From positions 1-45,633 of the IMG/VR virus record IMGVR_UViG_3300048839_000848: a stretch of DNA of 45,633 nt, one strand, 5' to 3'. A program made the position numbers and the translations under genes. Source of the stretch: a virus. How positions within the stretch are numbered: the stretch's first letter is position 1; each line of letters starts with the position of its first letter. Under the pieces are notes generated by a model. That model saw only the letters and a list, made by a program, of their open reading frames with translations, did not search any database and was not told the DNA's origin. Below, piece after piece: positions 5,948 through 23,053 of this stretch.

Positions 5948-8900
5948 ATGGCGGCGAAGAATGTCACAGAACTGTATCAGGCGCTGCGCCCGCTGATTTT
6001 GCGGGAGCTGGCCACGGCGGGCGGTGCGACGGCGGCCAACGGGGGCATGGAGACGCATGACCTGGCGGGGCCGTACCACACGGGGACGCTGCTGGAGAGC
6101 CAGGCGCCGTGGGCGGCGAGCAAGGTGGAATGGCAGGCGGCGTTGGCGACCCATGCAGCGCTGCCGGATGTGCATCACGCGCAGGCGCATGTGCTGGCGA
6201 CAAACGCCGGCCTGGGCGCTGATCACACGATCAGCGGGGCGGCGGCGGGTCATGTGCTGCGGGCATCCTCGGCGACGGCGGCGGCGTTTGCGCAGTTGGC
6301 ACACTCCGACCTGAGCGCCATCGGGACGAACACGCACACGCAGATTGACACGCACATCGCGAACAGTGACATCCACGTGGCGCACAGCGGGGTGAGTATG
6401 AGCGCCGGGGACGGGCTGACGGGCGGCGGCACGATTGCGGCGACGCGCTCGTTTGCGGTGGCGCTGTCGGCGGTGTCTGGTCTGGAGTTGACGGGCACGT
6501 CGCCGAACAAGACGCTGCAGCTTGCAGACAGCGTTGCCGGAGCGGGTTTAGCGTCCAACAATAAAGTCTTGTCGGTCGGTGTGGCGAACACGGGCGCCAC
6601 GGGGTTGACGGTGGAGGCGGATGCGGTCCGGCTGACAAGCAGCAGCAATCCGGGCGCGGCGGCGGCGGTGCTGGCGAGCGACGCCACCGGCAAACTCACG
6701 CTGCCGCTGCTGGTGGCAAGCTCGAGCGTGACGACGCCGCTGGTGACGGCCGGGGCGGGGCAGTCGCTGACGCTGCAGGCGCCGCAGGACATTATCCTCA
6801 GCCCGGGTACGAACCTGGCGAAGCTGGCGGCGGGGAAGCATTTGCAGTCTGAGACGTTTACTTCTGGTTTTGCCGGCGCCGGGTGGCGGATTGAGCAGGG
6901 CGCGCTGACTGCGGCAGAGGTGGACAATCTGACTGTGCGCGGGACGATGCGGGTCTATGAGCTGCTGATCCAGCAGATACGCGCGACGAACGGCTCTGTG
7001 TTTGTGTCGTCGTCGGCGAAGCTGGAGGCTGTGACGCTGGTGAGCGGCAGCACGTATGACTGCACTACTGACGGGAGCGCCGCGGATTATCAGCCGTTTG
7101 CTGTGGGGGATGTGCTGCGGGCGCAGCGGGTGAATCTGGGATCCGGCACGCTGGTGTGGCGCTCCGACCTGGTGGTGACGGCGATCAATGTGGGTGGGAA
7201 TGCCCGCAAGTTCAGGGCGACGCTGCAGAGCGCCACGACGGCGCCGGCGGCGGGCATGGAGTTTGTGCGGCTGGGCAACACGTCGGATGTGGCCCGGCAG
7301 GGCGCGGTCTATTTGACGGCGGATGATTCCGGCGCGCCGTTTATCGATGTGGTCGCCGGCATTGCGGCTCATGCGGACTGGAATACGGCGGGCAAGGTCA
7401 AGACCCGGCTGGGGAGGCTGGACGGCATTTTTGGCCAGACGGATGAATTTGGTCTGTGGGCTGGCACCGGGGTCACGGCTGGCGACCGCTACATCCGCGC
7501 CAGCAACAGCGCGCTCGAACTACGCAATATCCCCCTGGCGCTCTTCGACGGGAGCGCCAACACGCTGCTGCTGTCGCCGGGTGAGGGCAATCGTTCGCCC
7601 TTCTTGGCGCTGGGCAGCCCGCTGCCGACGGCGCCGATCACGAATGATGGCGTCTGGCTGGGGCTGGATGAGGCGACGACGAACTATGTGCAGAATCCGT
7701 CGTTCGAGGTGAGCACGGGGACATACTGGTCGTATTACAGCACGCCGACGGTGGCACAGGGCGGCGATGCGCTGTATGGCGCGTACAGTCTGAGCATGAC
7801 GACCGGGGCAGTAGCTGATCCTTATTTGTATCGACAGAATAGTGGGGCGGCGCTCGCCAGTGGCCAGGCGTGGACGTTTTCGGCGTGGGTGAAGGCGGGG
7901 AACGCAGGGGCGGTCGGCAAGACGGTGACGATCCGGCTGAGAGAGCAGCCGGGCAACCTGACTTCGGCGGTGACCATTGTGTTGTCGGCCGCCTGGCAGC
8001 GGGTGACGGTGACGCGCACGCTGACGAATGCGACGCCCACTGAACTGAATCACTACCTCCAGATTACCAGTGCGGCCAGCAGCGGCGATGTGCTGCTGGT
8101 GGATGGGGTGCAGTTGGAGCAGTTGGCCTATGCGACGCCGTACTGCGACGGGTCGCTGGGCGATGGGCACACGTGGAGCGGGACGGCACACGCCAGCGCC
8201 AGCAGCCGGGCAGGCGGGTATAAGCTGCGCGTGGGCACGGTGGCGAATGGTGTGCTGCAGCGGGGGCTGCTGTGGGACGGGGCGAACCTGGTGTGGAAGG
8301 CGGCGAACACGTCGCTCGATGCCAGCGGCAACCTGACGGCGAGCAATGCGACGCTGAGCGGGCAGGTGACGGCCACCACCGGGGCTATCGGCGGGTGGTC
8401 GATTGCCAGCACGACGCTGACCGGCGGCAATGTGCTGCTGGACGCTGCGGGCAAGATGCGAGTTGGCGCCGCCAGCGCGGACCGGCTTTGGATCGATGCG
8501 ACTCACGCTGATTATCGGCTTTGGGTGGGGGACGATACGCCGGGGGCGGCTGAGTTCTCGGTCACGAAGGGCGGTGCGCTGAGCGCGACGGGGGCGACGA
8601 TCTCCGGGGCGATTACGGCGACGAGTGGGACGGTGACGGGCGATTTCTCGGTGACGAGCGGCGGCAAGCTGACGGCCGGCGGCGGCGGGGTGCTCTTCGA
8701 TGCGAGCGGCCAGGCGATGGGGTTGTATCCAAACATCGATGGGGCGGCGACGCCGCCGGACACGGCGAAGGCGATTGCGTGGTATGACACGCCTTCGACG
8801 CGCACCGGCCTGCAAGCGCGGCAGTATGTGGGGAAGGCGAGCGACTCGACGCCGCATTGGAATGTGACGGTGAATCCGGGCGGGTCGTCGCCGCTGACGA

Positions 8901-11900
8901 TGACGCTGTGGTGGGGCGGGTCAACACTAAACGAATTGCGCTTTACGAATCTTGCGCTCGTCTTCGGACTTCCCGCCTTGTCGCTTGCCGGTGGACTGAC
9001 ACCGACAGCGCAGGTACTGAGCGGTTCTCGCCTGCAACTCAATAGCGGCAGTGAGTTCGTTTCGGCGGCGCATTTGAAGGCGGCGACGGCGAACACGTAT
9101 GACCTGGGCGAGGTGGGCGTCAAATGGCGCAAGCTCTATGTGCAGGAGGTGGTGGCCGACACGGTGAGCGGCGGCACGGCGCTGGGCGGCAACACGTGGC
9201 AGCGCCCCGACGCCGGGGATATGTACATCAACTCGTTCAGCGAGGCGGGCAACAGGACGCTGTATGTGGCGAATCCTGGCGCCGGGGTGATGCATTTGAA
9301 CGTGGAGGGCGACATTGCCCTGGGCGGTCTGGTGGACGGGGTCGACCTGGCGGCGTTCAAAACTGCCTACGATGGCCACAACCATGATGGACGCTATTAC
9401 ACGGAAACGGAGCTGCAGACGAGCGGCAGCGCAAGCGTGCATTGGGGCAATGTGACGAACAAGCCAGCGACGTTTGCGCCGGCGGCTCATGCGCTGGTGG
9501 GGAGCGACCACACGGCGAGCGGATTGACGGCTGGGCATGTTGTGCGGGCGAGCGGGCCGACGACGTTTGCCTGGGCGCAATTGGCGCACAGCGATCTGTC
9601 TGGGGTTGGCACGAACACGCACACGCAGATTGATAGCCATATCGCGGCGACGGCGGCGCACGGCGTGAGCGGGGCGATTGTGGGCACGACGGACACGCAG
9701 ACGCTAAGCAATAAGACGTTGACGACGCCGACGATTGCCAGCTTCGCCAATGCGCCGCACGCTCACACGAACGCTGCCAGCGGCGGCACGATTGCCCACG
9801 GCTCGCTGACGGGGATTGGGGCGAACGACCATCATAGCCAGGCGCATGTGCTGGCGAGCACGAGCGGCCTGGGGGCTGACCACACGGTGGCGGGGTTGAC
9901 GGCGCGGCAGGTGCTGCGGGCGACAGGGGCGACGACGGCGGCGTTTGGGGCGATTGAGGATGCAGACCTGCCCAGTACGATTGTCCGAACGAGTAGGCAA
10001 ATTATCGCCGGGAACGGGCTGACGGGTGGGGGGGCGCTGTCGGCAGATGTGACGGTGACGATGGGAACGCCGGGCGCGTTGAGCGCCACGTCAACCGATG
10101 CTGTGACTGCGACGAGCCACACGCACTCGATTGACTCGTCGATCGCGCGCAGCGCTATCACGCTGACTGCCGGCGACGGGTTGACGGGTGGCGGAAATTT
10201 GACTGCCAACCGAACACTTACGCTTGGCACGCCGGGCAGCATCACGGCGACCTCGACGAATGCGGTGACAAGCACGAGCCACACGCACGCGGCGGACAGC
10301 ACGCTGGCCCGGTCTGCCATCACCATCACGGCGGGCGCCGGCCTGACGGGTGGGGGTGACTTGACGGCGAACCGGACGCTCGACATTGGCGCCGGCGACG
10401 GCATCACGGTGGGGGCGGATGCTATCAGCCTGGCGCTGTCGGCGGTGTCGGGGTTGGAGTTGGCGGGTACGTCGCCGAACAAGACGCTGCAGCTTGCGGA
10501 CAGCATTGCCGGGGCGGGTTTAACGACCAACAATAAAGTGTTGTCGGTCGGCGTCTCTGGGTTGGGGCTGTCGGTGGGTGCGGATGCGGTGACGCTGACC
10601 AGCAGCAGCAATCCGGGCGCAGCGGCCAGCATCTTGGCGAGCACGGCGGCGGGCGGGTTGACGCTGGTGGATATGTCAGTGACTTCGTTGGCCACGAGCC
10701 GCCTGGTGGCGAGCGACGGGGCGGACAAGCTGGTGAGCGTGGCCGACTTGTCGGCGTGGGTGGCAGGCACGGCGAACCGGGTGTCGGTGGCGAGTGACGG
10801 CGACGGCACGATTACGCTGTCGGCGCCGCAGGACATTCACACGGCGGCATCGCCCACTTTCGTTGGGGCAACGTTGACCGGCTTGACGGCCAGCCGCCTG
10901 GTGGCGAGCAATGGCAGCGACGCGCTGGTGAGCGTGGCCGATTTGTCGGCGTGGGTGGCAGGCACGGCGAACCGGGTGTCGGTGGCGAGTGACGGCGACG
11001 GCACGATTACGCTGTCGTCGCCACAGGACATCCACACGGCGGCATCGCCCACGTTCATTGGGGCAACCTTGACCGGCTTGACGGCCAGCCGCCTGGTGGC
11101 GAGCAATGGCAGCGATGCGCTGGTGAGCGTGGCCGATTTGTCGGCGTGGGTAGCTGGCACGGCGAATCGGGTGTCGGTGGCGAGTGATGGCGACGGCACG
11201 ATTACGCTGTCGTCGCCACAGGATATCCACACGGCGGCATCGCCCACTTTCGTTGGGGCAACGTTGACCGGCTTGACGGCCAGCCGCCTGGTGGCGAGCA
11301 ATGGCAGCGATGCGCTGGTGAGCGTGGCCGATTTGTCGGCGTGGGTGGCGGGCACGGCGAATCGGGTGACGGTGGCGAGTGACGGTGACGGCACGATTAC
11401 GCTGTCGGCGCCGCAGGACATCCACACGGCGGCATCGCCCACATTTGGCGGGCTGATTGCGCCCTGGCTACGCCCGGCCAGCGACAGCACGACGGCGCTG
11501 CAACTGCGCAATGCCAGCGGCGCTGCGATCCTGACGGTTGACACGACGAACGGGCGGGTGGGGATCAACGGCACGCCAGGGAATTACCGGCTGGATGTGA
11601 CGGGGAGCGCCCGGATTTCGGATGATCTGCTGGTGGCGGATTATCTGGACGTGGACGGGGCGGCGACGGTGGCGGGCACGTTCGACGTGGGGACGGTGCT
11701 GCGGGTCAACACAGCCGGGACTCGCATTGGCATCAATCGAGAGGCGGATAGTCAATTCGATTTGGATGTGGCCGGGGCGATCCGGGGGCAATACCTGGTG
11801 GGGAAGCACGCGATCCAACTGGCCAGCGCGGTGGGGGTGTGGCACTTCGACGGGCCGGGGCCGTATAACCTGGATTTCAGCGGATCGGCGCACAGCCACG

Positions 11901-14900
11901 CGGGCGTGGGTCCAAACACGCTCAGCGGCGGGGCGATCTACAGGCCGGGTCGGTTTGGGAAGGCGCTGCAGTTGGCGTCGGCGACGACGAACCTGATTAC
12001 GAATCCGTCGTTCGAGACAAACTCCACGGGCTGGGTCACAAACAGTGCAACTTTGACGCGGGTGGAGGGAATTGCCCAGTACGGCGCGTATTCGGCGTTG
12101 GTTGTTCAGACTGGCGCATCGGCACGAATTGCGTACACGATCACGGTGGCAGCAAGCACAACCTATACTGTGTCAGCCTGGCTATACTCGCCGCTGGGGA
12201 ACACAGGTTTGCCGTACCTCTACGTGCAAAATGTCAATGGCAGCGCATTCAGCCAAAGCAGCAACGTCTCGGCACATGGCGGATGGCAGCGGGTGACGAT
12301 CACTTTCACGACTCCAGCCGATGTCACCTCAATTGTTGTGCGAGTTTACCCGAATGGCACGGCGCAAAGCGTCTACGTTGACGGCGTGCAGCTTGAGCAG
12401 TTAGCTTATGCGACGCCGTACTGCGACGGCTCGCTGGGCGATGGGCACACATGGAGCGGGACGACACACGCCAGCGCCAGCAGCAGGACGGTGGCTTCGA
12501 TTCAATACAACAGCATCGTGCCAGCAGCGGCCTGGACAGTGGCGGGTTGGTTCCGGTCTACTATTGCGGAAAATGCAGGTGCGCCGACTGGCGGGCGGCC
12601 GCGCTTTCTCACGATTGGGCCGTTGGGTGCAGCATCGAGCGCCGTGCTGCGGGTCAATGGTGCGGCGACTGCGCTGGAATTGGTAACGTATAGCCCGGCT
12701 GGGGCGGCGACGACGGCCACCAACGTGGCTGATCTCAATTACACGCCAGCGGATTGGATCTTCCTGGCGGTGTCGTATGACGGCGACAAGCACCGTGTTT
12801 TTGCTGGTCTGGCCGGCGCGGGCGCAATGACGACGTATATTGGCACTTCACTGCCCGGCAACTATGGCAACAACGGATTAGCGCTGCTTTTCGATGGTCA
12901 ACCGGGATTTGATCTGCTAGATGAGTTACTCGTTCTCGACTACGCAGCGGATGCGAAGCTGGTCAGGGCGATCTACGAGAGCGATGCGCCGGTGTTTGTG
13001 GCGTCGTCGGTGCTGCACTGGCGCAGCCCGTCACGCGTGCCGGTGTGGGTGGATGAGTACGGGCTGTGGGCGCAGTCGGTGAGCGGCGCGGCGATCCTGG
13101 GGGTGTATGGCGGCGACCCGCGCAACCCTGCTGGCAATGTCACCAGGTCGTGGGGCGGCGTGACGATGGCGGAGAATGATGTGGTGATCGGGCGCACGAC
13201 GGCGGGCGCGGCGCTGCACTGGGATGACAGTGCGGGTGCGCTGCTGCTGGGGGTGCAGAGTGGCAACCACATCGAACTGACGAGCACGACGCTGAAGATC
13301 AAGGCGGGCGTGAATGACCGGATCTCGCTGGACAGCGGCGGGAATGCGTCATTTGTCGGAGCCATCGATGCGAATTCGGGCACGCTGGCCAGCCTGACGG
13401 TGGACGGGGCGCTGACGGTGGGCGCGAGCGGGAGCATTGGCAGCGGGGCGACGAGTTTTGCGGCGGGCACGGGGTTCTGGCTGGAGTATAACGGCGGGAC
13501 GCCCCGGCTGCGCATCGGCACGACGGCGGGGAACCGGCTGACGTGGGATGGGACGACGCTGACGATTGCGGGGAGCGGCGGCGGGATTACTGGGATCAGC
13601 GGCAGCAACATCACGACGGGGACGATTGACGCCAGCGTGGTGACGGTGACGAACCTGAACGCCAGCAATGTCAGCACTGGCACGTTGAGTGCGGATCGGA
13701 TCGGGGCAAACAGCATCACGGCGGCGAAGATTGCCGCAGGGACAATCACGGCGACGGAGATTGCGGCGAGTACGATCACCGGGGCGAAGATTGCCGCCAC
13801 CACGATTACGGCGAGCAACATCGCCGCCGGGACGATCACGGCGACGGAGATTGCGGCGAGTACGATCACCGGGGCGAAGATCGCCGCCAACACGATTACG
13901 GCAAGCAACATCGCCGCCGGGACGATCACGGCGACGGAGATTGCGGCGAGTACGATCACCGGGGCGAAGATCGCCGCCAACACGATTACGGCAAGCAACA
14001 TCGCTGCGGGGACGATCACGGCGACGGAGATTGCGGCGAGTACGATCACCGGGGCGAAGATCGCCGCCAACACGATTACGGGCACGCAGATCAGCGGGAC
14101 GACCCTCTCGGCGATCTTTGCCGATATGGGGACGCTGACGGCGGGCAGCATTGTGATCGGCTCGACGAATAAGCTGTGGCTGAACGATGCTGGGGACGGC
14201 GGCCTGGCTATCGGCGGGTCGGTGAAGGGGAGTGCGCCGTTCCAGGTGAGCGCGGCGGGGGTGCTGACGGCCACCAACGCCAGCATCACGGGCACGATTG
14301 ACGCGAACGCAGGGTATCTGGGGGATTTGACGATCGACGGTGTGCTGAACATCGCCAGCGGCGGCGAGATTCGCCAGGGCACAGGGGTGCTTGGCAGCAA
14401 CTACACGGGGCTGCGGGTGTGGCGCGATAGTTGGGTCGGGCGCATCGGCGGGTACAACGCGGATACGCTGCAATGGTATGCGGGGACGGATGGGAAGCTG
14501 TACGCTGGTGGAGGGAATGTAAGCCTTGACTCAGATGGTATCAACATCAATGCTGGATCTACCCTGCGCTTCGTTTCGACCTCATTACGCGGCGTAATTG
14601 AAGCGGGCAACCCAGTTGACAGCTCGATTTCTAACTATCCTGGTCTAACCATAAAATCAAACGGCAGCGCGGTTGCCGAAACCGTAAACCTCCTCGCAAA
14701 GGCTTCCAGCAACCGCAGGGCGGAGGTGTCGGCGGATGCTTCTTCTAACAGTACAATCAGTCTATATGCTTACCCGGGCAGCGCGGCCACGGCGTCGTTG
14801 TTGCAACTGAGCACCAGTTCATTTTCTGTGGCGGTGGGTTCAACTCAAAGCACACTGGCCATACCAGTAAGTGGAACGGTACAGTTGACTGGTAATTTGC

Positions 14901-15076
14901 TGCTTGACGAACTATCCAGTACACCAGACGCGCCCGGTGAAGGGTATCAGGCTCGGATGTACCTTAAGAGTGATAAGCTGATTATTCAATACAAGGACGG
15001 CATCAACACGCGCTATAAGTACCTCGATCTGACAGGTACGGGCATAACGTGGACACACACGACAACTGCACCATAG
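5948..15076 (+). CDS. Giant tail fibre / host-specificity protein, 3042 aa
   Basis: The largest gene, one uninterrupted frame, starting 3 nt after the previous stop. It is built of modules. Fibre shaft repeats of the GDGLTGGG type occur at about residues 150-300 and 1350-1500. Four 65-residue repeats lie at about 1584-1835 and four 30-residue ITATEIAASTITGAKI-type repeats at about 2598-2715. Two CBM-like jelly rolls (NPSFE...VDGVQLEQLAYATPYCDGS) lie at about 578-756 and 2018-2180. The second is followed by a LamG-like domain (TVAGWFRS...DELLVLDYAADAKLV) at about 2181-2350. The tip, from about residue 2855 (VSLDSDGIN), has AT-richer codon use than the shaft, as expected for an exchangeable receptor-binding end. 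No chaperone-cleavage motif is evident. Confidence 0.88.
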   Translation: MAAKNVTELYQALRPLILRELATAGGATAANGGMETHDLAGPYHTGTLLESQAPWAASKVEWQAALATHAALPDVHHAQAHVLATNAGLGADHTISGAAAGHVLRASSATAAAFAQLAHSDLSAIGTNTHTQIDTHIANSDIHVAHSGVSMSAGDGLTGGGTIAATRSFAVALSAVSGLELTGTSPNKTLQLADSVAGAGLASNNKVLSVGVANTGATGLTVEADAVRLTSSSNPGAAAAVLASDATGKLTLPLLVASSSVTTPLVTAGAGQSLTLQAPQDIILSPGTNLAKLAAGKHLQSETFTSGFAGAGWRIEQGALTAAEVDNLTVRGTMRVYELLIQQIRATNGSVFVSSSAKLEAVTLVSGSTYDCTTDGSAADYQPFAVGDVLRAQRVNLGSGTLVWRSDLVVTAINVGGNARKFRATLQSATTAPAAGMEFVRLGNTSDVARQGAVYLTADDSGAPFIDVVAGIAAHADWNTAGKVKTRLGRLDGIFGQTDEFGLWAGTGVTAGDRYIRASNSALELRNIPLALFDGSANTLLLSPGEGNRSPFLALGSPLPTAPITNDGVWLGLDEATTNYVQNPSFEVSTGTYWSYYSTPTVAQGGDALYGAYSLSMTTGAVADPYLYRQNSGAALASGQAWTFSAWVKAGNAGAVGKTVTIRLREQPGNLTSAVTIVLSAAWQRVTVTRTLTNATPTELNHYLQITSAASSGDVLLVDGVQLEQLAYATPYCDGSLGDGHTWSGTAHASASSRAGGYKLRVGTVANGVLQRGLLWDGANLVWKAANTSLDASGNLTASNATLSGQVTATTGAIGGWSIASTTLTGGNVLLDAAGKMRVGAASADRLWIDATHADYRLWVGDDTPGAAEFSVTKGGALSATGATISGAITATSGTVTGDFSVTSGGKLTAGGGGVLFDASGQAMGLYPNIDGAATPPDTAKAIAWYDTPSTRTGLQARQYVGKASDSTPHWNVTVNPGGSSPLTMTLWWGGSTLNELRFTNLALVFGLPALSLAGGLTPTAQVLSGSRLQLNSGSEFVSAAHLKAATANTYDLGEVGVKWRKLYVQEVVADTVSGGTALGGNTWQRPDAGDMYINSFSEAGNRTLYVANPGAGVMHLNVEGDIALGGLVDGVDLAAFKTAYDGHNHDGRYYTETELQTSGSASVHWGNVTNKPATFAPAAHALVGSDHTASGLTAGHVVRASGPTTFAWAQLAHSDLSGVGTNTHTQIDSHIAATAAHGVSGAIVGTTDTQTLSNKTLTTPTIASFANAPHAHTNAASGGTIAHGSLTGIGANDHHSQAHVLASTSGLGADHTVAGLTARQVLRATGATTAAFGAIEDADLPSTIVRTSRQIIAGNGLTGGGALSADVTVTMGTPGALSATSTDAVTATSHTHSIDSSIARSAITLTAGDGLTGGGNLTANRTLTLGTPGSITATSTNAVTSTSHTHAADSTLARSAITITAGAGLTGGGDLTANRTLDIGAGDGITVGADAISLALSAVSGLELAGTSPNKTLQLADSIAGAGLTTNNKVLSVGVSGLGLSVGADAVTLTSSSNPGAAASILASTAAGGLTLVDMSVTSLATSRLVASDGADKLVSVADLSAWVAGTANRVSVASDGDGTITLSAPQDIHTAASPTFVGATLTGLTASRLVASNGSDALVSVADLSAWVAGTANRVSVASDGDGTITLSSPQDIHTAASPTFIGATLTGLTASRLVASNGSDALVSVADLSAWVAGTANRVSVASDGDGTITLSSPQDIHTAASPTFVGATLTGLTASRLVASNGSDALVSVADLSAWVAGTANRVTVASDGDGTITLSAPQDIHTAASPTFGGLIAPWLRPASDSTTALQLRNASGAAILTVDTTNGRVGINGTPGNYRLDVTGSARISDDLLVADYLDVDGAATVAGTFDVGTVLRVNTAGTRIGINREADSQFDLDVAGAIRGQYLVGKHAIQLASAVGVWHFDGPGPYNLDFSGSAHSHAGVGPNTLSGGAIYRPGRFGKALQLASATTNLITNPSFETNSTGWVTNSATLTRVEGIAQYGAYSALVVQTGASARIAYTITVAASTTYTVSAWLYSPLGNTGLPYLYVQNVNGSAFSQSSNVSAHGGWQRVTITFTTPADVTSIVVRVYPNGTAQSVYVDGVQLEQLAYATPYCDGSLGDGHTWSGTTHASASSRTVASIQYNSIVPAAAWTVAGWFRSTIAENAGAPTGGRPRFLTIGPLGAASSAVLRVNGAATALELVTYSPAGAATTATNVADLNYTPADWIFLAVSYDGDKHRVFAGLAGAGAMTTYIGTSLPGNYGNNGLALLFDGQPGFDLLDELLVLDYAADAKLVRAIYESDAPVFVASSVLHWRSPSRVPVWVDEYGLWAQSVSGAAILGVYGGDPRNPAGNVTRSWGGVTMAENDVVIGRTTAGAALHWDDSAGALLLGVQSGNHIELTSTTLKIKAGVNDRISLDSGGNASFVGAIDANSGTLASLTVDGALTVGASGSIGSGATSFAAGTGFWLEYNGGTPRLRIGTTAGNRLTWDGTTLTIAGSGGGITGISGSNITTGTIDASVVTVTNLNASNVSTGTLSADRIGANSITAAKIAAGTITATEIAASTITGAKIAATTITASNIAAGTITATEIAASTITGAKIAANTITASNIAAGTITATEIAASTITGAKIAANTITASNIAAGTITATEIAASTITGAKIAANTITGTQISGTTLSAIFADMGTLTAGSIVIGSTNKLWLNDAGDGGLAIGGSVKGSAPFQVSAAGVLTATNASITGTIDANAGYLGDLTIDGVLNIASGGEIRQGTGVLGSNYTGLRVWRDSWVGRIGGYNADTLQWYAGTDGKLYAGGGNVSLDSDGININAGSTLRFVSTSLRGVIEAGNPVDSSISNYPGLTIKSNGSAVAETVNLLAKASSNRRAEVSADASSNSTISLYAYPGSAATASLLQLSTSSFSVAVGSTQSTLAIPVSGTVQLTGNLLLDELSSTPDAPGEGYQARMYLKSDKLIIQYKDGINTRYKYLDLTGTGITWTHTTTAP
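10697..11446 (+). repeat. Four tandem 195-bp repeats inside the fibre gene
   Basis: Units begin at about 10697, 10892, 11087 and 11282, with a period of exactly 195 bp (65 codons). Each encodes SRLVAS...VSVADLSAWVAGTANRV...DIHTAASPTF. The copies differ by few, mostly synonymous bases, pointing to recent duplication. They build a regular stretch of the fibre shaft. Confidence 0.93.
13741..14085 (+). repeat. Four tandem 90-bp repeats inside the fibre gene
   Basis: Units begin at 13741, 13831, 13921 and 14011 with a period of 90 bp (30 codons), encoding TITATEIAASTITGAKIA with Asn or Thr variants. They are nearly identical at DNA level. Repeats of this I-A/T-I type are common in phage fibre shafts. 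Confidence 0.93.
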
Positions 15077-15922: not shown

Positions 15923-16882
15923 TCACAGCCGCCACTTGTCGGCCACCGACGACCGGCGTTGGGCGGCGACCAGGTCCACCTCGGCGAGCCGGGCGTAGAT
16001 GCGCAGGGTGTTCATGTTCTCGTGGCCCAGCATCTCTTGCAGTTCCAGCAGGTTGCCGCCGTTGCGCAGGAAGTTGACGGCGAAGGTGTGGCGGAAGCGG
16101 TGCACGGTCACTTTGAGCACGGCGGCCCGGGCGCCGATGTCCTGCAGGGTGCTGCGCAGATTGTTGCGTTCGATGGGCCGGTTGGTGCCGGTGGCAAAGA
16201 GCGGATCGGTGGGCTGCGCATCGGGCCGTGTGACCAGGTAGCGCCAGAGGATGCGGCGCCCGGACTGGCCGAGGAAGACGACCCGATCTTTGTTCCATTT
16301 TCCCTTGCGCACTAACAATCGCCCCTGTGATTGGATGTAATCCCGGATCTCGAAGTTACAGAGTTCGGCGGCGCGCACGCCGGTGTCTACCAGGGTGATG
16401 ATGATGGCCTGGTCGCGCAGGTGGAAGACGCTGGCCTCGCGCACGGAGCGGTCACGGCGGGTGCGCCATTCGGCCTTCTGCGCGCAGGCGCCGAGCATGG
16501 ACTTGATCTCCAACTCGGAATAGATTTCGATGACTGGGGAGCGGTATTTGGGCTTCTGCACGTGGTCACGGATGACGTGGGGCACGTCAAGTTCGCCAGA
16601 CGCCCACGTCCAAAAGGAGGACAGGGCGGTCCAGACGTTGCAAAGTGACTTCTTGCTCAGATTGTACTCGTCAACGATATCGGCCATCCAGCGCTGCACG
16701 TCGGCGGGGGTGATGTCCACCAGGGCGGTGGCGCCGTAGCGTTCGGAGAAGCGGCGGAAGGTGACGGTGTAGTCGCTGATGGTGCCTTTGCTGAAGTTGC
16801 TGCTGCGCGCCAGCCAGTAGCCTTCGAGGGCGTTGTCGAAGGTGATGGCCTGGCGCTGTTTGGGTTTGCGGGTGGCTGCCAT
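15923..16882 (-). CDS. int: Phage integrase, tyrosine recombinase
   Basis: 319 aa with an ATG behind GGAGGA. An N-terminal SAM-like core-binding domain (about 15-100) precedes the catalytic domain, with all expected residues: R170 (TGVRAAEL), K195 (KGKWNKDR), H261 and R264 (HRFRH), H287 (LGHEN) and nucleophile Y296 (IYARL). Such enzymes join attP to a host attB, usually a tRNA 3' end, and the attP candidate with a tRNA-Val 3' half lies about 170 bp upstream. The gene opens the minus-strand lysogeny block. This is the more likely integrase of the two recombinases because of its position. Confidence 0.95.
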   Translation of the reverse strand: MAATRKPKQRQAITFDNALEGYWLARSSNFSKGTISDYTVTFRRFSERYGATALVDITPADVQRWMADIVDEYNLSKKSLCNVWTALSSFWTWASGELDVPHVIRDHVQKPKYRSPVIEIYSELEIKSMLGACAQKAEWRTRRDRSVREASVFHLRDQAIIITLVDTGVRAAELCNFEIRDYIQSQGRLLVRKGKWNKDRVVFLGQSGRRILWRYLVTRPDAQPTDPLFATGTNRPIERNNLRSTLQDIGARAAVLKVTVHRFRHTFAVNFLRNGGNLLELQEMLGHENMNTLRIYARLAEVDLVAAQRRSSVADKWRL

Positions 16883-17053: not shown

Positions 17054-17098
17054 TGGTGGGCGTGACAGGACTTGAACCTGTGACCTCACGGATGTGAA
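17054..17098 (-). other. attP: Candidate attP core: 3' half of a tRNA-Val(CAC)
   Basis: Read on the minus strand, it runs from an anticodon loop TTCACAT (anticodon CAC) through GAGGTCACAGG, a T-loop GGTTCAAGTCC and CCTGTCACGCCC to a terminal ACCA. The 5' half of the tRNA is missing: no GGGCGTG acceptor strand and no pairing partner for the anticodon 3' stem CCGTG. So this is not a working tRNA but the piece that restores a host tRNA after integration. A second copy of GAACCTGTGACCTCA lies at 17119-17133 (first at 17074-17088) and may be an integrase arm or an older remnant. The host tRNA identity is read from the loop, which is well conserved. Confidence 0.82.
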
Positions 17099-17357: not shown

Positions 17358-18128
17358 TCACCGGCGCGCCCGCGTCAAACACGCCGGACACGTGCATAAC
17401 TGGTTCCTGGGCTTGCGGTGCACCAGCCCGTGGATCACCCCATCTTCCTGATCGAAGCGCCCTTCGATGCAGTTGTAATAGGTCAGGTCGCTGGCGTTGT
17501 AGCGCCGAAAGACGGCGTAGGCGACGTGATCGGCTAACTGCACGATGCGCGATGACTTCGAGTCGACGAAGAGCGGCACCTCGCAGATCCCGGTGAGATA
17601 CTGGCCCCACCGGTTGCCTTCCTGCCGGAAGGTGGCCGCCAACCCCTGCAAGCTGGTTTCGTAGGTGGATTTGTCCATGACGATCAACCCGCGGTGCTCT
17701 TCCTCGCGGCGCTCCTTGACGGCCTGGGCGCCGTTGAGCCGCTTCAAGTAGCGGTCGAAGCGGCTGCTGATCTCCTCAAAAGCCTGGCGCACCGGATCAC
17801 CCGTGAACGATGCCTTGTGGATGGCGCAGGCAAAGGTGATGACATCCGGGTACGCCTTATCCAGCACGGAGAGCACTTGTTTGATCACGGTGATGCGCGC
17901 CGGGCGCTCGCGCATTTCCCGCCAGATGCCTGTGCGCCCGCCAAAGATATCGACTGCGTGCAACTCCACGTCTTCGGGCGCGTCGGTGAGGGTCTGGACA
18001 AGTTTCTCCAGCTCGTAGGAGAGCCAACGCAGGCTGCGTTCGGGCACGCAGACGCCGCCCAGCACGAAGTATTCTTCGTTGGCGTTGTGCGGTGAACCGG
18101 AATCGTCGAGGTACAAAATGTGCATCAT
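17358..18128 (-). CDS. DUF3800 protein, putative RNase H-like enzyme linked to an upstream tandem-repeat RNA
   Basis: 256 aa from the first of two adjacent ATGs. Conserved acidic motifs of DUF3800 are visible: LDDSG (D8, D9), HAVDIFGG (H57, D60), IVMDKS (D152) and VDSKSSRIVQLADHVAY (D189, D200). The C-terminal Cys pattern C245-C247-C250 (CTCPAC) is also typical of the family. The arrangement of acidic residues suggests an RNase H-like nuclease fold; this is inference. Its AGAGG ribosome site lies inside the 3' arm of a hairpin that ends only six bases before the ATG. Two tandem RNA repeats and a strong promoter stand farther upstream. Promoter, repeats, terminator-like hairpin and protein in this order match type III toxin-antitoxin loci. 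Confidence 0.85.
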   Translation of the reverse strand: MMHILYLDDSGSPHNANEEYFVLGGVCVPERSLRWLSYELEKLVQTLTDAPEDVELHAVDIFGGRTGIWREMRERPARITVIKQVLSVLDKAYPDVITFACAIHKASFTGDPVRQAFEEISSRFDRYLKRLNGAQAVKERREEEHRGLIVMDKSTYETSLQGLAATFRQEGNRWGQYLTGICEVPLFVDSKSSRIVQLADHVAYAVFRRYNASDLTYYNCIEGRFDQEDGVIHGLVHRKPRNQLCTCPACLTRARR

Positions 18129-18132
18129 AACA

Positions 18133-18290
18133 AAAGGCCTCTTGAAGATGTGACTCCCCAAGAGGCCTCTCTGGTCTTTGAGCCGGGCGGGACTTGCTCC
18201 CAACGGACCGCCTGCTGCAGCCCTCCCAACCCTACCTGAGCCGGGCGGGACTTACTCCCAACGGACCGCCTGCTGCAGCCCTCCCGACAT
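18133..18290 (-). ncRNA. Tandem-repeat leader RNA upstream of DUF3800
   Basis: The predicted transcript starts near 18290 and runs to the hairpin before DUF3800. It holds two 49-base direct repeats (18285-18237 and 18227-18179 in the transcribed direction), 58 bp apart. They differ at one position, U or C in the loop of a GGGA-G(U/C)AAG-UCCC hairpin, which fits a conserved RNA fold. GGCGG/CCGCC and a GCTGCAGC palindrome offer further pairing. No open frame fits. A run of repeats between a strong promoter and a terminator is the form of type III antitoxin RNAs. DUF3800 genes are also known to be preceded by candidate structured RNAs (named DUF3800 motifs). Function is inferred. Confidence 0.7.
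18135..18168 (-). terminator. Terminator-like hairpin covering the DUF3800 ribosome site
   Basis: A perfect 10-bp stem (AGGCCTCTTG with CAAGAGGCCT) with a 14-base loop. In the transcribed direction (minus strand) the 3' arm is followed by TTTTGTT and then the ATG. The stem contains the AGAGG that would serve as the DUF3800 ribosome site. It can therefore act as a leaky terminator, as a translation lock, or both. Confidence 0.75.
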
Positions 18291-18296
18291 GCCTCT

Positions 18297-18325
18297 AGTA
18301 TAGGGAATCATTTGTGACTTGTCAA
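18297..18325 (-). promoter_or_regulatory. Strong sigma-70-type promoter for the DUF3800 leader RNA
   Basis: On the minus strand TTGACA (18325-18320) is followed after exactly 17 bases by TATACT (18302-18297), a near-consensus promoter. The predicted start is near 18290, five bases before the first repeat. It sits 78 bp behind the HicB-like gene, so the RNA can be made independently of that gene. Confidence 0.85.
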
Positions 18326-18402: not shown

Positions 18403-18609
18403 TCATGCGGCCAGGGCAAAGACGCCCGGCAGTTCGGGCGCAGGCTCGCCATGCTCCAGCCGGTCGGCGATGACCCGCAGCACCAGCGCCTGCACGCGGC
18501 GGATCGCCTCCTGGCGCGTGCGACCGTAGGCCAGCGCACCGGGCAGCGCTGGCGCCTCGGCCAGAAAGCGGCCATCCTCTTCCTGCTCGATTTCGATTGC
18601 TACGCTCAT
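18403..18609 (-). CDS. HicB-family antitoxin-like protein, without HicA
   Basis: 68 aa, with an ATG behind AAGGAA. It shows the HicB partial RNase H-like fold pattern: EIEQEEDGRFLAEAPALPGALAYGRTRQEAIRRVQAL, followed by a short helix. The usual C-terminal RHH DNA-binding extension is absent, as in many short HicB-like proteins. HicB normally binds the HicA mRNA interferase, but no HicA-like frame exists on either side. It precedes the DUF3800 RNA on the same strand. It may neutralise a host HicA or simply be a remnant. Confidence 0.72.
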   Translation of the reverse strand: MSVAIEIEQEEDGRFLAEAPALPGALAYGRTRQEAIRRVQALVLRVIADRLEHGEPAPELPGVFALAA

Positions 18610-19861: not shown

Positions 19862-20323
19862 CTAAGCAGGCTCCGTAGGTTGTGCAGGCGGCGCCGGGCT
19901 ATCGTACCGTTCGGTTGTGTCATCGGGCACCTCGCCTATGATGTGGGGTTGGGCTGGCAGCAGTAAGCGCTCGATGACTTCCAGCGTAAATTGACGTTCG
20001 CCTGGCGTTTCCCGCGCCAGCACCAGCAGCAGCGCGCGCACGATGGCCCGCTCCGGCCCCGGCAACTGCGCCAGCAGCGCCGCCTCCTGCGCACGGTTCT
20101 CCGCCCGCACCGGGTCCGGGTCGTCCGTCAGGCCGAGTAGGTAGTCGGTCGTCGTGCGGTAGCGTTTGGCCAACCTGGTCAACAATGACCAAACGTTGGG
20201 CTGATTGCGACCACGTTCAAGATCGGATAAGTACTGAGGTGTAAGCCCCTCGTACTCTCCTACCTGCCCAAGTGACAATCCGATCTGTTGGCGTCGCTCT
20301 CGTAGCCGTTCACCGATGGTCAT
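19862..20323 (-). CDS. XRE-family transcriptional repressor (CI-like)
   Basis: 153 aa from an ATG (MTIGERLRERRQQIGLSLGQV). The helix-turn-helix spans about residues 5-60 (SLGQVGEYEGLTPQYLSDLERGRNQP...LLTRLAKRY). The C-terminal half has a helical segment (EAALLAQLPGPERAIVRALLLVLA) and a Pro-rich tail; there is no LexA-type protease domain, so it is probably not cleaved by RecA. It faces the early operon across a short control region with a consensus promoter and a palindrome. It most likely maintains lysogeny by repressing that promoter. Confidence 0.88.
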   Translation of the reverse strand: MTIGERLRERRQQIGLSLGQVGEYEGLTPQYLSDLERGRNQPNVWSLLTRLAKRYRTTTDYLLGLTDDPDPVRAENRAQEAALLAQLPGPERAIVRALLLVLARETPGERQFTLEVIERLLLPAQPHIIGEVPDDTTERYDSPAPPAQPTEPA

Positions 20324-20334
20324 GTCAACAATGA

Positions 20335-20347
20335 TACGACCATCGTA
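20335..20347. promoter_or_regulatory. Operator candidate, palindrome TACGA-CCA-TCGTA
   Basis: A perfect 5-bp inverted repeat with a 3-base centre, 12 bp upstream of the repressor start, in the divergent control region. Binding of the XRE repressor to its own start region would fit, but no second copy of this exact word is seen near the early promoter. Confidence 0.45.
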
Positions 20348-20379
20348 AGCTATTTGTTTAATCAATTTTGGCAATGGTA

Positions 20380-20408
20380 TTGACAAGTCTAAGTTAATGG
20401 CGTATAGT
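20380..20408 (+). promoter_or_regulatory. Early promoter (TTGACA-17-TATAGT)
   Basis: TTGACA at 20380-20385 and TATAGT at 20403-20408 are separated by exactly 17 bases. The first early gene starts 42 bp downstream. The surrounding DNA is clearly AT-richer than the genes. This is the probable target of the XRE repressor. Confidence 0.85.
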
Positions 20409-20449
20409 GTTTCCACAAACTCAGTCAATAGCGTTTATGGGGGAACCGC

Positions 20450-21234: not shown

Positions 21235-21722
21235 AAGCGCTCACCATAACGCAGCCCTGGGCGACGTTGATCGCCCAGGGGCATAAACGCATCGAGACGC
21301 GTAGTTGGAGCACCAACTACCGCGGCCCGCTGGCCATACATGCCGGCAAAAACTTGCCCAATTGGGTTGCGGACCTTGTACGCAGCGAACCAAAATTCAC
21401 CACCGTGCTGGGTGATTTGTTCGACCCGAGCAAGCAGGCGCTTGGCGACCTGCCGCGCGGTTTCATCGTGGCGACCTGCCAATTGGTCGCTGTCAAATTC
21501 ATTCCGTTGCACGATAAGGGGTGGGACTGGATCGGCCCGACAGGTCGCCGATTTCACTATCCCGTCACCGATTGCGAACTGGCGTTCGGAAACTTCACGG
21601 TCGGGCGCTACGCCTGGCTGCTGGCTGACGTGACACCCCTGGAAAAACCAATCCCTACACGCGGCGCGCTGGGGTTATGGTCCGTGCCCGCCTACGTGAT
21701 GAAACAGATGGTGCAGCCATGA
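21231..21722 (+). CDS. ASCH domain protein
   Basis: 163 aa from a GTG overlapping the small upstream frame. The ASCH signature is clear at the N-terminus: ALTITQPWATLIAQGHKRIETRSW followed by YRGPLAIHAGK, and GFIVATCQLVAV in the middle. ASCH domains are PUA-like beta barrels that bind RNA or nucleotides, and phage versions are frequent in early operons. The substrate here is unknown. Its stop overlaps the start of the next gene (ATGA). Confidence 0.88.
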   Translation: MKALTITQPWATLIAQGHKRIETRSWSTNYRGPLAIHAGKNLPNWVADLVRSEPKFTTVLGDLFDPSKQALGDLPRGFIVATCQLVAVKFIPLHDKGWDWIGPTGRRFHYPVTDCELAFGNFTVGRYAWLLADVTPLEKPIPTRGALGLWSVPAYVMKQMVQP

Positions 21723-23053
21723 ACGAACTCACTCGCTATGAACCGGCGCTGGTGGAGGTGCTTGATGCCGACGACGGCGCGGCCCTCACTGACGTTCGGG
21801 GTTCGGATGATGAGGCGGTGCGCCAGGCGCAGGAGGCGCGCAAGCGGGCGGAGTTCGGGCAGGCGATGCTGCAGGCGCAGCTTGCCAACGACGAATGGAT
21901 GGCGGTGCAGTGGTCGAACCTGCACGAGGACTGGCTGCGCTTCGTGGACAGCAGCCGTTCCGGGTCGGAGCACACGCTGCGCAACTATCGACTGGCCACG
22001 CGGCAGTGGCGCGAGTACGTCGCCACCCTGCGCCACGAGCTTGGCCCGGACGCCGGCTTTCCGGTGAAGCTGTGGCAGGTGGACGCCGGCCACGTGCGCG
22101 GCTGGCAGCAGCAAATGGCGGATGCCGGCACGGCGCCGGCCACCATCGGCTTGAAGTTGTCGGCGGTCTCCTCGTTCTATTCCTTTGTCATCAATGAGAA
22201 GCGCATGGCTTTCGGGGTCGAGATGTGCCTGTTCGTGGACGCCCTGGGCAATGCCCGCGCCAACCCGTTTCGCTTCGGCAATATCCAGCGGCCAAAGGTG
22301 AGCAGCGAGAGCGGGCGCGCCCGTCCGCTCCAGCCGCAGGAGCTGGGCGCGCTGTTCACCTACTTGCAGGGTCGCCAGCACACGCTGGCCGGCGCCCGCA
22401 ACTTCGCCCTGATCCTGACCTACCTGGAGACCGGCTTTCGCAACGCCGAAGTGGTGCGGATGCAGTGGAAGCACATTCGCCCGTCGAAGTCGCAGCGCGA
22501 GCGCATCATCTACGCCTGGAAGGGCAAGGGCGGCAAGACGGAAGATGAACCGTTGCCCGAACTCGTCTGGAACGCCATCGTCCACTACCTGTTCATGGAT
22601 GGACGTTGGATCCCCAATGCGCCGCTGCACGAGCAGCCGCTGCAGCCGGACGATTACATTTTCCGTGCCGTGAGCCATCACGGCACGGCGTACCTGGCCA
22701 ACGTGGACGCCGACGCCATCGACCCCGACGGCGCCATCAGCGGCAAGAGCGTGCTGCGCGTCCTGCGCACGGCGCTGCGCCGGGCTGGCGTGGCGGATGC
22801 GGCGACGGTGCGGGTGCATGACCTGCGCCACACGTGGGCGCTGCGCATGGTCGCCGACGGCGCCAACGACAGCGAGGTGCAGCGGCGGGCGCATCATTCG
22901 TCCCTGGAGACCACGGCGCGCTACATCGGCAGCCTGAAGCAGAAGAGCCGGGACCGCAAGGACCTGCGCAGCGGGCGGCTGGCCGTCCAGTTGCGCGCCT
23001 TCGCCGACGGCGACGCGCCGGGGAGTTGGGAGGAGGTGATCGAGGGGGCATGA
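21719..23053 (+). CDS. Second tyrosine recombinase (XerC/D-like)
   Basis: 444 aa. N-terminal residues 1-60 are an extra acidic/helical extension, the SAM-like core-binding domain spans about 65-185 and the catalytic domain about 200-420. All catalytic residues are visible: R241 (TGFRNAEV), K270/K273 (KGKGGKTE), H367 and R370 (HDLRHTW), H393 (HHSSLETT) and Y402 (RYIGSL). It is longer than, and clearly different from, the integrase at 16 kb. It sits in the early operon rather than beside attP, so it may resolve multimers, act on a second site, or promote excision. Confidence 0.92.
   Translation: MNELTRYEPALVEVLDADDGAALTDVRGSDDEAVRQAQEARKRAEFGQAMLQAQLANDEWMAVQWSNLHEDWLRFVDSSRSGSEHTLRNYRLATRQWREYVATLRHELGPDAGFPVKLWQVDAGHVRGWQQQMADAGTAPATIGLKLSAVSSFYSFVINEKRMAFGVEMCLFVDALGNARANPFRFGNIQRPKVSSESGRARPLQPQELGALFTYLQGRQHTLAGARNFALILTYLETGFRNAEVVRMQWKHIRPSKSQRERIIYAWKGKGGKTEDEPLPELVWNAIVHYLFMDGRWIPNAPLHEQPLQPDDYIFRAVSHHGTAYLANVDADAIDPDGAISGKSVLRVLRTALRRAGVADAATVRVHDLRHTWALRMVADGANDSEVQRRAHHSSLETTARYIGSLKQKSRDRKDLRSGRLAVQLRAFADGDAPGSWEEVIEGA

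Follow-up and report, generated by a model that had tools for sequence, protein, structure and literature searches.

The locus described here lies on the minus strand of the window, i.e. the whole 45,633-nt stretch of viral DNA analysed (IMG/VR record IMGVR_UViG_3300048839_000848), between an integrase gene (15923-16882) and a repressor-like gene (19862-20428). In the direction of transcription it consists of a predicted promoter, two direct copies of a structured RNA, a terminator-like hairpin and a gene for a DUF3800 protein (Table 1). The distance from the predicted RNA start to the ATG of the gene is 165 nt.

Table 1. Features of the DUF3800 locus (17358-18325) in order of transcription
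Feature	Position	Strand	Remarks
Sigma-70-type promoter TTGACA-17-TATACT	18325-18297	-	11/12 consensus; predicted transcription start ~18290
DUF3800-VI RNA copy 1, three-way junction	18290-18238	-	49.9 bits; lowest two pairs of outer stem unformed
DUF3800-VI RNA copy 2, three-way junction with all 20 pairs	18232-18180	-	60.1 bits
Terminator-like hairpin, 10-bp GC-rich core + TTTTGTT	18168-18129	-	-27.9 kcal/mol; 3' arm holds AAGAGG
DUF3800 gene, 255 aa, RNase HII-like fold	18125-17358	-	Pfam DUF3800; fold from predicted structure

A first-pass annotation of the same DNA had reported a near-perfect promoter and a 10-bp hairpin with a T-rich end that bears the ribosome site of the gene, and both are present. 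The paired arms of the hairpin (AGGCCTCTTG/CAAGAGGCCT) span 18168-18135 and are followed by the T-rich stretch, and the AAGAGG ribosome site in the 3' arm lies 12 nt upstream of the ATG. The hairpin is absent from the strict terminator scan of the window, probably because its loop exceeds the length limit of that scan.

The two RNA copies are 96% identical over 52 nt, with a start-to-start distance of 58 nt and a spacer of 5 nt. The annotation had described direct repeats that differ at one base in a predicted loop. The direct copies and the T/C difference in the loop of the third stem, which is the sole difference from GGGAGG to GGCTCA, were found as described, but there is a second difference (TCGGG/TTGGG) at the 5' edge of the unit. 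Folded alone, each unit forms a three-way junction (-26.2 and -26.6 kcal/mol). A tandem fold in which copy 1 pairs with copy 2 is lower in energy (-59 vs -53 kcal/mol), but near-identical copies always permit such pairing, and it was rejected. Copy-wise folding is preferred because single units are the rule among relatives and because the diverged copies of the nearest relative (L158) each match the model.

In a covariance search against the Rfam DUF3800 motifs, both copies match family RF02915 (DUF3800-VI) over all 52 positions, with E-values of 9.8e-12 and 5.6e-9 and with scores above the gathering score of 35 bits. Rfam gives this family the type 'Cis-reg'. The annotation had mentioned candidate structured RNAs ahead of DUF3800 genes; the repeats of the window belong to one such curated family and are thus an already known RNA, not a new one. 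The DUF3800 motifs were reportedly described by Weinberg and colleagues in 2017.

The annotation had tied its proposal to conservation of the repeat structure in relatives, and such conservation is found. In an alignment of 20 units from phages and several bacterial phyla, 95.7% of the cells of the three-way junction are paired and two-sided changes occur at 13 of the 20 pairs; none of 500 shuffles equals this covariation, and slid registers also fall far off. On this comparative evidence, the junction is a real and selected structure. On rhizobial plasmids the 52-nt RNA is 98-100% identical, as against 82-95% for the adjoining gene, and the flanks upstream of the RNA are mostly unalignable. 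The tandem arrangement, which the annotation had emphasised, is present in the window, but relatives as a rule have one copy and not an array: two copies are uncommon and occur only in the window and L158, whose protein is 60% identical to that of the window and whose two RNA copies have diverged, both still matching the model. Three further candidates for DUF3800-VI RNA were judged to be chance matches, namely L142 and, at 12-14 bits, L135:114-175 and window:21598-21620.

The positions of promoters and stops bear on whether the RNA is transcribed as a separate unit. Upstream DNA was sufficient at 30 loci, from phages, plasmids and several phyla, and at every one of them the best sigma-70-like promoter ends 5-9 nt ahead of the base that opens the outer stem, a placement found in 10% of shuffled upstream DNA; the nominal p value of 6e-31 is too small, since the loci are related. 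Therefore, it appears that the RNA begins at the transcription start. Transcription may stop before the ATG in two ways. In class A, a U-run comes after the outer stem of the RNA itself, shortly ahead of the start codon (L131, L134, L139, L144, L145, L161, L168, L169). In class B, a further hairpin, GC-rich and with its own U-run, lies between the RNA and the gene (window, L141, L150-L154, L158, L159, L162-L167, L170-L177). On the protein tree, class B comprises two groups, one proteobacterial (97/98 support) and the other formed by the window, L158 and L159 (100/99), the latter being placed among class A. The conserved feature, as judged from these sequences, is the succession of RNA, stop and gene, whichever terminator is used. 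In the minimum free energy (MFE) folds, the RNA and the terminator stand side by side in many leaders and form alternative folds in some. The comparison with relatives suggests that class VI comprises stand-alone RNA genes that start at +1, and that the RNA is a separate partner of the protein.

The RNA is linked to the gene throughout the subfamily. The 31 genes sampled by protein, which share at least 33% identity across most of their length and come from viral contigs, plasmids, phages and Planctomycetota genomes, without exception have the RNA beside the gene start; it was detected by covariance model or Rfam in 27 and by folding and eye in four (L151, L152, L169, L170). More distant DUF3800 genes, two actinobacterial (L181, L182) and one Pf1-like (L155), are without such an RNA, and the pairing therefore belongs to a subfamily. 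Relatives are also carried by plasmids of 3.6-7 kb and by other phages, and a 3.6-kb E. coli plasmid (NZ_CP104685) carries the pair of RNA and DUF3800 gene. The order of promoter, RNA, stop and nuclease-like gene is kept across phages, plasmids and several phyla. A single-protein search of the genome contigs collection yielded no relative of the DUF3800 protein; pattern-scan matches in these contigs were mostly chance, and were sorted by flanking pairing and the presence of DUF3800.

More than ten loci have an intact RNA with a broken or absent gene. The gene is broken at six loci found by their RNA (L132, L133, L136, L147, L270, L275), and on two plasmids (L178, L183) it is split beside an intact RNA; orphan RNAs with no gene occur at L143, L149, L271, L273, L274 and L137. 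The excess of broken genes over lost RNAs would fit a harmful protein and a harmless RNA, although it is partly expected, the gene being the larger mutational target and some assemblies being poor or draft.

The orientation of the RNA was also compared. In Zavarzinella formosa (L135/L200), an RNA of 56.8 bits is divergent from an intact DUF3800 gene of 241 aa, the product of which is 42% identical to the protein of the window. A separate promoter (TTGACC-17-TAGAAT) precedes this RNA, which ends in a T-run; since the RNA is transcribed away from the gene, it cannot be the 5' UTR of that gene. It is the one clear divergent class VI locus, on a draft contig of 3.5 kb. A rule that the RNA always lies in the 5' UTR of a regulated gene thus fails at this locus and at five of the orphans (L143, L149, L271, L273, L274). 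Another locus (L276) is ambiguous, with a promoterless DUF3800-VI RNA 545 nt before an intact gene. Fourteen matches to other DUF3800 RNA classes (I, V, VII, VIII, IX, XI) were found beside DUF3800 genes, and in 11 of them, including members of classes V, VII, VIII and IX, the RNA lies downstream of the gene on the other strand, in convergent orientation. Rfam types these classes as sRNA genes, and several of the RNAs, not all, closely follow a consensus promoter and terminate in a U-run. Because of the Zavarzinella divergence and the opposite-strand position of the other classes, the label 'Cis-reg' is probably wrong or incomplete for class VI.

The gene product matches Pfam DUF3800 (PF12686) with 62.4 bits (curated cut-off 21). 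The AlphaFold2 model (pLDDT 93.4) is closest in fold to RNase HII and the eukaryotic RNase H2 (Z 10.7, rmsd 2.8 over 155 residues), followed by RNase H1 and Piwi domains; Foldseek alone gives a borderline best E-value of 1.6e-3. The residues D7, D/E8, E54, H56, D151, Q196 and D199 are conserved. We infer that D7, D/E8, D151 and D199 correspond to the RNase HII active site, and the D[DE]xG of the first strand is reminiscent of the DEAG motif in RNase HII. On the model, the protein has an RNase H fold with a predicted acidic site, which agrees with the acidic pattern of an RNase H-like nuclease noted in the first-pass annotation. It is also in line with published descriptions of DUF3800 as a nuclease of RNase H fold whose site is rearranged (PMC10910872, PMC12669027). 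Other searches with the protein gave no match in NCBIfam, a weak partial match to the PADLOC model PDC-S51 (15.9 bits), an unnamed family only in PHROGs, and, by sequence, neither a solved relative nor a ToxN-like chain in the PDB. Pfam gives only DUF3800 and the best fold matches are to RNase H, so that no known type III toxin family (ToxN/CptN/TenpN-like) is matched, as the annotation had held.

Several known systems resemble the locus. ToxIN sits on a small plasmid. It shares with the locus a promoter, RNA units, a terminator that sets stoichiometry, a protein gene and carriage on mobile elements (PMC5772629). ToxN, however, belongs to an unrelated endoribonuclease family, as against an RNase H-fold protein in the window, and ToxI consists of 5.5 repeats of 36 nt that form pseudoknots (PMC5772629), whereas DUF3800-VI forms one or two three-way junctions of 52 nt. 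The ToxIN-like type III assignment of the annotation therefore stands for the order of promoter, RNA, stop and gene, with one promoter and a terminator between RNA and gene, which is conserved and matches both ToxIN and AbiF/RCd22, but not for the protein, which has no ToxN-type Pfam family. In AbiF/RCd22 of the Clostridioides difficile prophage phi027, two abiF motifs are accompanied by a promoter and a terminator, RCd22 starts 168 nt before the abiF ATG (165 nt in the window), and RCd22 neutralises AbiF in cis and in trans via direct RNA-protein contact (PMC12373285). The likeness thus extends to a prophage gene, two tandem RNA motifs, a sigma-70-type promoter, a terminator and a nuclease-fold protein. 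In contrast, AbiF is a HEPN RNase with an unrelated RNA motif (RF03085), and its toxicity and neutralisation in trans are experimentally proven, whereas the DUF3800 module is known here from sequence. Rfam DUF3800-VI itself is like the window in the three-way junction and the partner gene, but it is filed as cis-regulatory, whereas the window has two tandem copies and the comparison indicates a stand-alone RNA gene from +1. DUF3800 is also an accessory nuclease at some Cas12a2 and type VI-F loci (PMC10910872, PMC12669027), with the same domain and RNase H fold; unlike these, the window has neither CRISPR nor a TPR domain, but a stand-alone gene with its own RNA.

The match in order with AbiF/RCd22 and ToxIN, together with the RNase H fold, makes a protein-RNA module working like a type III toxin-antitoxin system, closest to AbiF/RCd22, the best reading, and we hold it, by analogy, to be somewhat probable. 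Under such a scheme, a short, strongly transcribed RNA would start at +1 and mostly end at the hairpin ahead of the gene, while occasional read-through would yield a little of the nuclease, which excess RNA would bind in trans and keep inactive. A failure of RNA synthesis, by loss of the element or by host shut-off by another phage, would free the nuclease to harm the cell, with prophage maintenance or abortive defence as the outcome. The RNA would then probably be more than a gene switch, namely an antidote against a toxic nuclease. The anatomy of the locus, the structure of the RNA, its constant linkage and the one locus where it is not a leader are read directly from the sequences, whereas toxicity, binding, inhibition and the trigger are inferred. 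Several points count against an antitoxin: RNase HII-like enzymes act on RNA/DNA hybrids, an activity from which a toxin that cleaves mRNA would not be predicted; the RNA unit is single in most relatives; and the six orphan RNAs are superfluous for a pure antitoxin.

The most serious rival is a ribonucleoprotein effector, in which the nuclease would strictly depend on the RNA as a positive cofactor or scaffold, in the manner of OMEGA or CRISPR-like systems, the RNA being an activator and not an inhibitor. The obligate linkage of RNA and gene, the RNase H fold of the predicted model, the strong conservation of the RNA and the accessory role of DUF3800 at some Cas12a2 and type VI-F loci (PMC10910872, PMC12669027) all accord with it. 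However, the RNA lacks a variable stretch resembling a guide, the end of the transcript coincides with that of the structure, especially in class A, and the near-identical tandem copies of the window and the orphan RNAs fit a titrating partner at least equally; we regard an activating role as unlikely.

A cis-regulatory leader would be an attenuator, or a leader that binds a protein or ligand, that sets read-through into DUF3800 and does nothing in trans; one variant is autoregulation, with the DUF3800 protein binding to its leader. The RNA does lie upstream on the strand of the gene in nearly all class VI loci, a terminator stands between the two, and the Rfam type agrees. Such a leader nevertheless accounts poorly for the divergent Zavarzinella RNA, for orphans that retain promoter and stop, for the other DUF3800 RNA classes on the opposite strand that Rfam treats as sRNAs, for the many MFE folds in which RNA and terminator are not exclusive alternatives, and for a terminator arrangement that varies between clades, and it is considered improbable. 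Chance or unrelated repeats, favoured by the small unit size and nothing else, are already refuted by the Rfam E-values, covariation, linkage and recurrence, and have practically no likelihood.

The RNA family, the protein family and the type III-like principle are already known; new are the evidence for class VI as a stand-alone RNA gene from +1 and the twin copies in the window and L158. The literature search, which did not take in the original motif description, found no study testing DUF3800 with its RNA. Some dozen curated RNA families take their names only from an adjoining DUF3800 gene and have no known role. It is possible, though somewhat less likely than not, that the DUF3800 proteins and the approximately 11 Rfam RNA classes (I-XI) together form a single large superfamily of toxin-antitoxin-like modules that has gone unrecognised, in which each RNase H-fold nuclease would be held by its own stand-alone structured RNA, as leader, divergent or convergent neighbour; phages would carry complete modules and also orphan RNAs, possibly as decoys. 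The reading of the class VI RNA as a separate gene and partner of an RNase H-fold nuclease would, if right, add an enzyme fold outside the ToxN-type systems to RNA-controlled toxin or defence modules and account for a widespread class of bacterial RNAs without known role.

Some loci have further features. A 277-kb phage (L137/L120, record G007, 112799-112851, minus strand) has an orphan DUF3800-VI RNA of 44-51 bits adjoining an RNA polymerase beta-like gene; this jumbo phage is without any DUF3800 gene, and the RNA is possibly a decoy against a host module or a chance match at the scale of the whole collection. The orphans of Gemmatimonadota (L271, L273, L274) have good promoters and T-rich ends, and in L273 an ORF resembling a UvrD-like helicase (by eye) takes the usual position of DUF3800 behind the RNA. 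An alphaproteobacterial sRNA, ar15, precedes the DUF3800-VI RNA by ~115 nt on plasmids of Rhizobium and Agrobacterium (L153 1671-1780, L154 1673-1782). In L276, a strong GC-rich hairpin with T6 (1950-2098), on the strand opposite the intact DUF3800 gene (32% identical), is perhaps a second RNA gene in divergent orientation.

In the window, a sequence like the 3' end of a tRNA, read by eye near 17060, adjoins the DUF3800 locus and is a plausible attP. The integrase and repressor setting, this attP candidate and the relatives on small plasmids and phages fit maintenance or defence cargo. Two different tyrosine integrase genes are present (15923-16882, minus strand; 21677-23053, plus strand), with the DUF3800 locus and the repressor-like genes between them. 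Directly upstream of the RNA promoter is a solitary small ORF (18403-18609, minus strand) that is HicB/UPF0150-like, its matches being below the Pfam cut-off, with no HicA seen. A single open frame of 3042 aa occupies 5948-15076 on the plus strand.
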